17,896 nt of DNA from Deltaproteobacteria bacterium (GTDB lineage: Bacteria > DRYD01), in NCBI GenBank assembly GCA_028276365.1, contig JAPYWL010000021.1, forward strand, positions 1 to 17,896, written 5' to 3'. Positions 7,136-8,757 of the stretch are shown in pieces. Each line of letters begins with the position of its first letter. Within the stretch, counting starts at the first letter, position 1. The notes below the pieces were generated by a model. That model saw only the letters and a program-made list of their open reading frames with translations, was not told the DNA's origin and searched no databases. A program made the position numbers and the translations under genes.

Positions 7136-7221
7136 GCCGGAGTGGCGGAATTGGCAGACGCAGGAGACTCAAAATCTCCCGCCCTTTAACGGGCGTGCGG
7201 GTTCGAGTCCCGCCTCCGGCA
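7136..7221 (+). tRNA. tRNA-Leu (CAA)
   Basis: A class II tRNA of 86 bases with acceptor GCCGGAG/CTCCGGC, anticodon CAA in loop CTCAAAA (reads UUG), a long variable arm (CGCCC..GGGCG) and T arm GGGTTCGAGTCCC. The discriminator is A at 7221 and CCA is not encoded. It lies 19 bases after the rseP stop and just before the interleaved element, so it may be cut out of a longer transcript. Confidence 0.96.
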
Positions 7222-7224
7222 ATA

Positions 7225-7302
7225 TAGCGTTCTTACTACCGCCTGCTGGGTTAAGAACGCTACCAAAATTAAGGCGGTATATAAATAGCCCAGTACCTTA
7301 AT
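7225..7302 (+). ncRNA. Interleaved inverted-repeat element between tRNA-Leu and the DUF151 gene (candidate structured RNA)
   Basis: Four complementary pairs are packed into 78 bases. Pair A, TAGCGTTCTTA (7225-7235) with TAAGAACGCTA (7252-7262), is a perfect 11-bp stem with a 16-base loop. Pair B, TACCGCC (7237-7243) with GGCGGTA (7273-7279), is a perfect 7 bp. Pair C, TGCTGGGTT (7244-7252) with AGCCCAGTA (7287-7295), is 9 bp with two G-U. Pair D, ATTAAGG (7268-7274) with CCTTAAT (7296-7302), is a perfect 7 bp. A and D can form two hairpins whose loops are mutually complementary through B and C. A, B and C cannot all nest, which implies a pseudoknot, kissing loops or alternative folds. It ends 12 bases before the DUF151 start codon, which has no ribosome binding site. 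I recognise no known riboswitch or ribozyme. Confidence 0.6.
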
Positions 7303-7314
7303 AAAAATAAAATT

Positions 7315-7860
7315 ATGAAGTTAAAGAAAGTGAAAATTTATCAATTAGCTACGGATATAGTCACTGATGATGCTGTAGTTATTCTAAAAGATGAAGAAAA
7401 TAAAAATATCTTACCTATTGTTATAGGGCATTTTGAAGCATCGAGTATTGCTATAGCTTTAGAAAAACTTAAAATAGAAAGACCTATGACTCATGACTTA
7501 ATTAAAAATATATTCGAATCCTTAGGAATAACCGTAGAAAAAATAGTTATTACTGAACTAAAGGGATCCACTTATTATGCTAAAATATATCTAAATTATA
7601 GGGATAAAATCTATGAAATAGATGCAAGACCAAGTGATAGCATAGCCATTGCTGTTAGAATTAACGCACCTATTTATGTAAATGAGAGTTTATTAGAAAA
7701 TGTACCAATTGTAGAATATACCGAAAAAAGTAATGAAGTTAAAAGTATCTCTAATTTACCAGAAGATGAAGAAAAACAAAGGTTTAAACAGTTCCTTGAT
7801 AAAATTAAACCTACTGACTTCCTTAGGTATTTTAAGGAAGGGGAAGAAGAAAAAGATTAA
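7315..7860 (+). CDS. DUF151 bifunctional nuclease-family protein
   Basis: The BFN/DUF151 fold fills residues 1-135. It shows the family core: VVILKDEENKNILPIVIG, then EASSIAIAL, RPMTHDLI, then ARPSDSIAIAVR near residue 100. Plant and Thermotoga members of this family have reported or proposed DNase/RNase activity; the exact role in bacteria is unsettled. The C-terminal tail (about 150-180) is charged and contains EKQRFKQFLDKIKPTDF, as in many homologs. The ATG at 7315 has no Shine-Dalgarno. Just upstream lies the interleaved element, which could control translation. The mtnP gene follows after 69 bases. Confidence 0.92.
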   Translation: MKLKKVKIYQLATDIVTDDAVVILKDEENKNILPIVIGHFEASSIAIALEKLKIERPMTHDLIKNIFESLGITVEKIVITELKGSTYYAKIYLNYRDKIYEIDARPSDSIAIAVRINAPIYVNESLLENVPIVEYTEKSNEVKSISNLPEDEEKQRFKQFLDKIKPTDFLRYFKEGEEEKD

Positions 7861-7929: not shown

Positions 7930-8757
7930 ATGGAAAAAACAATTAAAGCAGATATAGGAGTTATAGGAGGTACTGGATTCTATTCATTTTTAGATGCTGT
8001 AGAAATTAATGTAGAAACTCCTTACGGGCCTACCTCAGATAAAATAGCTATAGCAGAAATAGACTCTAAAAAAGTAGCTTTTATCCCCAGACATGGGAAA
8101 GATCATAAATACCCACCATCTTTAGTACCTTATAGAGCTAATATCTGGGCATTGAAAAAATTAGGGGTTAAATTTATATTAAGTCCTTGTGCTGCAGGAT
8201 CTCTACAACCTTACATAAAACCTGGGGATATAGTTATCTTAGATCAAATATTTGATAGAACTACTAAAAGAGCTAGCTCTTTTTATGAAGGACCTGTTAC
8301 TACACATGTATCGTTTGCTTACCCCTATTCAGAATACTTAAGAAAAATTATAATAAAAGAAGCACAGAATTTAGGATTATCTTATCATCCTAAAGGTACA
8401 GTCGTTGTTATTGAAGGGCCAAGGTTCTCTACTAAAGCTGAAAGTAGATATTACACTAAGATGGGATTTGAAGTTATAAATATGACTCAAATGCCAGAAG
8501 CTATCTTAGCACGAGAATTAGAAATATCCTTTGCTGGTATCGCTTTGATTACTGATTATGATGTAGGTTTAGAAGATGACCCATCTATTGAACCTGTATC
8601 TCATGAATTAGCTGTCCAAAATTTCATTAAAAATCAAGAAAAACTAAAAAAATTATTAATTAATGTTATAAAAAATATAGATATTACTTACCAAGATGAA
8701 GCCCATAGCGCTTTAAAAAATGCCAGGTTTAATCAGAATATTATCAATTTATTTTAG
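7930..8757 (+). CDS. mtnP: S-methyl-5'-thioadenosine phosphorylase
   Basis: It splits methylthioadenosine with phosphate into adenine and 5-methylthioribose-1-phosphate, clearing the by-product of polyamine synthesis and other SAM reactions. Visible motifs are the phosphate-binding IGGTGFY (about 12-18), the RHG loop (54-56), the family block GTVVVIEGPRFST (about 156-168), the substrate Met in INMTQMPEA, and T208-D209-Y210-D211. The Asp pair there favours adenine nucleosides over 6-oxopurines. The length of 275 matches the family. AAAGGAG at 7916-7922 fixes the ATG. It follows the DUF151 gene on the same strand, and a weak hairpin overlaps its stop codon. Confidence 0.94.
   Translation: MEKTIKADIGVIGGTGFYSFLDAVEINVETPYGPTSDKIAIAEIDSKKVAFIPRHGKDHKYPPSLVPYRANIWALKKLGVKFILSPCAAGSLQPYIKPGDIVILDQIFDRTTKRASSFYEGPVTTHVSFAYPYSEYLRKIIIKEAQNLGLSYHPKGTVVVIEGPRFSTKAESRYYTKMGFEVINMTQMPEAILARELEISFAGIALITDYDVGLEDDPSIEPVSHELAVQNFIKNQEKLKKLLINVIKNIDITYQDEAHSALKNARFNQNIINLF

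Follow-up and report, generated by a model that had tools for sequence, protein, structure and literature searches.

A pseudoknotted RNA family ahead of start codons with a probable translational function and a link to TnpB-like elements

The locus and its element

The window is a stretch of 17,896 nucleotides from a Deltaproteobacteria bacterium, in which a tRNA-Leu gene is followed by a short structured element, the gene of a BFN (bifunctional nuclease, DUF151) domain protein and what is probably an mtnP-like phosphorylase gene, whose name is that of the preliminary description (Table 1). As had been noted there, the element lies just after the tRNA and before a start codon without a Shine-Dalgarno sequence, while the mtnP-like gene has its own, AAAGGAG. 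Only 3 nt separate the tRNA from the element, so there is no room for a promoter between them.

Table 1. Features of the element and its neighbours, in window positions
Feature	Position	Strand	Sequence	Remark
tRNA-Leu (CAA)	7136..7221	+		Directly upstream of the element
Stem A, 5' arm	7225..7235	+	TAGCGTTCTTA	Covaries across lineages
Stem B = S1, 5' arm	7237..7244	+	TACCGCCT	Family core CCGCC at 7239-7243
Stem C = S2, 5' arm	7245..7251	+	GCUGGGU	
Stem A, 3' arm	7252..7262	+	TAAGAACGCTA	Within loop 2 of the pseudoknot; covaries across lineages
Stem D, 5' arm	7268..7274	+	ATTAAGG	Non-conserved, probably incidental
Stem B = S1, 3' arm	7272..7279	+	AGGCGGTA	Family core GGCGG at 7273-7277
Loop 3, conserved	7278..7287	+	UAUAUAAAUA	Family form WATANAAAT
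Stem C = S2, 3' arm	7288..7294	+	GCCCAGU	
Stem D, 3' arm	7296..7302	+	CCTTAAT	Non-conserved
BFN (DUF151) domain protein gene	7315..7860	+		ATG 20 nt past S2
mtnP-like phosphorylase gene, inferred	7930..8757	+		Next after the BFN gene

The complementary segments A, B and C were found where they had been described, in the non-nesting arm order A B C A' B' C'. Stem A has 11 bp, and stem B has 8 bp instead of the 7 bp given at first. Stem C pairs GCTGGGTTA (7245-7253) with TAGCCCAGT (7286-7294) over 9 bp, including two G-U; 7 of these are compatible with stem A, because the last two pairs use 7252-7253, which A needs. Among 2000 dinucleotide shuffles of the region, a stem of at least 11 bp appeared in one, and two crossing stems of at least 7 bp in 10.

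Regarding the fourth proposed stem, D, its 5' arm shares 3 nt (7272-7274) with the 3' arm of B, and the minimum-energy nested fold of the element contains A and D only (z -2.6). Other copies conserve stems A, B and C or show covariation in them, whereas D is missing from the congener's orthologous copy and, judging by the sequences, is outside the family structure. Consequently, the suggestion of a translational switch with two hairpins, A and D, is unsupported, as D is not conserved; it is also the only alternative stem, and no alternative fold is conserved.

The preliminary description had also called for a comparison with Rfam. Against all 4227 models at curated thresholds, the window and ten related loci yielded tRNA matches only, and sensitive scans of two copies of the element gave no credible match. 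Concerning self-cleavage, no Rfam ribozyme matched and no catalytic motif was identified. Literature searches found no earlier description, and the family is apparently undescribed.

The family and its distribution

A DNA search returned the orthologous copy in the sole congener (G001), with 80% identity and the same gene behind it, and short matches elsewhere. The family plan is CCGC[C/T], 0-4 nt, a variable arm, a loop of 0-50 nt, [A/G]GCGG, WATANAAAT(A) and the complement of the variable arm. Searching this pattern gave 7-32 matches per genome in G000 (the window's genome) to G005, against 0-7 with a reversed control, and zero in G006, and a finder fitted 111 of 120 anchors to an H-type knot. 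Pattern matches in Flavonifractor and Oscillospiraceae (L179, L183) were discarded as coincidences within coding sequence.

With a covariance model, copy numbers, all lower bounds, were 18 in the window's genome, 23 in a Tepidanaerobacteraceae MAG, 19 in Thermovorax, 15 in Fervidicola, 8 in a Thermosediminibacteraceae bin and 6 in Sulfurihydrogenibium yellowstonense, with one or two each in Thermodesulfobacteria, an Aquificota bacterium, a Hydrogenothermaceae bacterium, bacterium GBS-1, bacterium 42_11 and genome G147. One further copy is present in G420, from the same phylum as G147, and another small phylum has one copy in each of its four genomes (L198, L199, L200, L310). These four knots precede an adenylate-forming-ligase-like (phenylacetate-CoA ligase-like) gene, assigned by reading the sequence only. 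In a broad sample, the knot occurred in 10 of 386 genomes. The distribution is patchy and mostly thermophilic, comprising Thermosediminibacterales, Aquificota, Thermodesulfobacteria and others, with dozens of copies in the window's genome and family and 1-23 outside that family. Carriage by phages, plasmids or viruses was looked for and none was found.

Covariation and structure

Three tests of the structure, all independent of folding energy, agree. First, S2 arms score 17.3 with their own partners, compared to 9.6 ± 0.46 with partners swapped between copies. Second, stem A in the long forms of many lineages scores 21.6, compared to 11.75 ± 0.73 when swapped. Third, 24 aligned long forms contain 94 double-changed cells against 32 after shuffling, with changes on both sides in 10 of 10 A pairs and 6 of 7 S2 pairs, and sliding the partners by one column abolishes the signal. 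S1 is nearly invariant (CCGC/GCGG, followed by the conserved loop WATANAAAT), and its pairing therefore rests on the conservation of both arms; a scan without the CCGC requirement found CCGC in 50 of 55 family loci, these loci having been fetched mostly by a GCGG-containing pattern. As to the compensatory changes that the preliminary description had wanted looked for in relatives, A and C covary strongly, and B is fixed in both arms.

As S1 is fixed while A and S2 vary, S1 and loop 3 form the core, and A and S2 are structural stems free in sequence. Loop 2 seems tolerant of insertions, as two loci (L037, L080) carry inserted hairpins there at an orthologous gene, duplicated in the congener. 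With its crossing S1 and S2 and the covariation of S2, the element is best described from its sequences as an H-type pseudoknot leader. The structure is established by computation; its function we infer.

Position relative to genes

Within the window's family, the knot stands in sense just ahead of the start codon of 87 distinct genes, and nearly every copy is sense-oriented. Across all lineages, and with intervening hairpins discounted, the start codon lies a median of 15 nt past S2 (10-90% range 10-23 nt); in copies with a long intervening hairpin, the effective distance is unchanged. This constrained position in sense orientation is that of a translational leader, and the spacing is the strongest pointer to translation initiation. 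In addition, 37 of 89 copies have a sense open reading frame upstream whose stop lies at most 200 nt away, in many cases at most 30 nt, so the knot is not merely a feature of 5' ends, and local action at the start codon is favoured.

The genes behind the knot are unrelated and mostly housekeeping. They encode ribosomal proteins S2, L17, L32, S15, L7/L12 and L31; RecA, AsnRS, ArgRS, Jag, SufC, Frr, trigger factor, SSB, ATP synthase delta and ACP; PRPP synthetase, ATP-citrate lyase, ribityllumazine synthase, a glycine C-acetyltransferase family member, a disulfide oxidoreductase, CutA, aspartate-semialdehyde dehydrogenase and the BFN nuclease of the window, as well as S4 and GAPDH, these two identified by reading translations only. 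Consequently, an attenuator private to the DUF151-mtnP transcript, as once proposed, is unsupported, because the same RNA family precedes dozens of unrelated genes. The placement is also conserved: 13 of 17 copies in the window's genome have a counterpart before the orthologue in the congener, two full compensatory changes separate the members of the glycine C-acetyltransferase pair, and the rpsD and cutA copies are common to a second genus.

A Shine-Dalgarno core precedes 24% of knot genes, compared with 32% of other genes (p = 0.2); as this difference is not significant, the counts do not demonstrate that the knot replaces the Shine-Dalgarno. In several lineages with few copies, a good Shine-Dalgarno follows the knot. 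A Shine-Dalgarno-free mode of initiation is nevertheless possible from the sequences.

Association with TnpB-like elements

In Fervidicola, Thermovorax and the Thermosediminibacteraceae bin, the knot forms the 3' (right) end of a repeat of about 1.75 kb, present in 14-16 copies per genome, some partial, in the first two. In these three lineages and Sulfurihydrogenibium, it lies 40-110 nt past a TnpB-like open reading frame. The protein of the repeat has RuvC-like motifs but no zinc ribbon, and matches TIGR01765 and TIGR01766, with weak matches to guided TnpB; the Sulfurihydrogenibium version is 50-52% identical. TnpB relatives at loci L257 (Sulfurihydrogenibium) and L244 keep the D/E/D RuvC-like motifs and have a long C-terminal tail, with the zinc ribbon missing.

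The left flanks of these elements are CGGAGG, TGGAGG, CGGGAGG and GGGAGG, less clearly GGCGG and AAAGG, and the right ends are CCAGG, a few bases ahead of host start codons, including that of rho. In Thermosediminibacterales, the element separates rho and other genes from a GGAGG-like sequence upstream, and therefore its right end must supply the start region. Several TIGR01765 elements of Thermovorax and Fervidicola (L244 157-1900, L245, L248, L250, L251) were apparently targeted between Shine-Dalgarno and start codon. From their TnpB, ends and flanks, the elements may be read as IS607-like, because IS607 TnpB has an AGGAG TAM and a structured right-end RNA (PMC11061315).

A TnpB gene adjoins the knot only in Thermosediminibacterales and Sulfurihydrogenibium, not in the window or its family. 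Protein, PF07282 and TIGR01765 searches for a diverged TnpB in the window's family did not find one, PF07282 returning only ordinary TnpB, in G002 and G005. The congener has about 11 near-identical long copies without TnpB, each ahead of a different gene (L107-L109, L111, L115, L118-L120, L122, L124, L125) and resembling a recently amplified non-autonomous element; several share a similar CAGG right end. A TTGTGC..TATAAT 'promoter' in these repeats was reread as the upstream hairpin that they have in common with the TnpB elements.

Taken together, this association raises the alternative that the knot is a candidate guide-RNA scaffold of TnpB, a right-end element RNA whose host copies would be what is left of elements that had inserted next to Shine-Dalgarno sequences, retained by chance or serving a TnpB in trans. 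The place of the knot behind the TnpB-like frame in four lineages, the profile matches, the near-identical congener copies and the IS607 precedent all speak for it. However, TIGR01765-type TnpB is absent from G000-G006 and from most other knot genomes, genomes that lack it preserve orthologous copies through compensatory changes, and the RAGATH-18 model gave no match in L244 100-2000 at E<0.5. We consider this explanation unlikely. It had also been proposed that the idea would fall if many dispersed copies revealed a simple mobile repeat, which turned out half true; the copies are indeed dispersed, and in some lineages they sit on a TnpB-like element, but most keep the structure while diverging in sequence and are orthologously fixed.

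Proposed mode of action

The reading that we favour, with slightly better than an even chance of being right, is that the knot belongs to a family of cis-acting leader RNAs that serve the following gene as a docking or insulating module in translation initiation. In the mRNA, stem A would close a loop whose 3' side pairs with the downstream strand, giving S1 (CCGCC/GGCGG) and S2, with the conserved A/U loop 3 crossing S1. The end of the knot, about 15 nt before the start codon, would then mark the upstream edge of the 30S docking place, and the stable module would keep the A/U-rich and often Shine-Dalgarno-less stretch before the AUG open. In the window, RNase Z would cut off the tRNA, and the BFN mRNA would then begin with the knot. 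The likely source of the knot, or the means of its spread, would be the right end of a TnpB-like element inserting beside Shine-Dalgarno sequences; thus, it was perhaps derived from or spread by a transposon. Regarding the preliminary reading as a whole, the A-B-C knotted RNA stands, with a likely cis role related to translation, while the D switch and the single-transcript role fall away.

A bolder form of this reading, which we put forward only tentatively and with low confidence, is that the transposon-derived knot is a general movable start-site module, in place of or added to the Shine-Dalgarno, recruiting ribosomes to dozens of core genes; a TnpB-like element targeting the Shine-Dalgarno would spread it, with the host gene still translated.

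Knotted folds can stall 5'-to-3' exonucleases, and the knot might instead protect or process mRNA 5' ends, blocking 5'-to-3' decay. Some copies begin about 10-15 nt after a -10-like box (L190, L309, L180, L186), and the window copy would form a 5' end after tRNA processing. However, many copies are intercistronic and such a role does not require a fixed distance to the start codon, which makes it improbable.

A little less probable again is that the knot works as a riboswitch or is bound by a global RNA-binding regulator, with a regulon of 20-40 genes. Compact H-type riboswitches sit ahead of start codons, and a fixed S1 and loop 3 beside drifting A and S2 resemble binding pockets; the invariant parts could equally be recognized by a protein or small ligand, a point against the favoured reading. 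On the other hand, Rfam riboswitches are unmatched, all gene classes are included in sets that differ between lineages, no alternative fold is conserved and the transposon linkage is hard to explain. Finally, a promoter or DNA-only element is rejected, since the crossing helices covary and the orientation follows the gene.

The knot thus represents a new family of RNAs whose function is probably translational and whose association with TnpB elements is striking. This structured family is missing from Rfam 15, has three helices that covary or are fixed, stands in multiple copies before essential genes and crosses phylum borders. Two questions become testable with it: can a compact knot define where translation begins without relying on the Shine-Dalgarno, and do TnpB-type elements that land next to Shine-Dalgarno sequences provide their hosts with start-site RNA?

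Comparison with known systems

Among H-type pseudoknot riboswitches, preQ1-I and others are likewise small knots with an A-rich loop 3 near the start codon. The present family differs from them in having no Rfam match, an extra outer stem A, genes that share no pathway and no sequestered Shine-Dalgarno.

In Escherichia coli, the tisB mRNA has a standby pseudoknot in its 5' leader that is needed for translation initiation, a likeness and not membership, as it concerns a single mRNA, lies far from the ribosome-binding site, has another structure and forms no repeated family (PMC7708055). As for the IS607 right-end RNA, RAGATH-18, its covariance model does not match, and most knots here are TnpB-free and precede housekeeping genes; however, it too is a structured, pseudoknotted RNA 3' of a TnpB gene, and the AGGAG TAM of IS607 resembles the GGAGG-like left flanks of the elements described here (PMC11061315).
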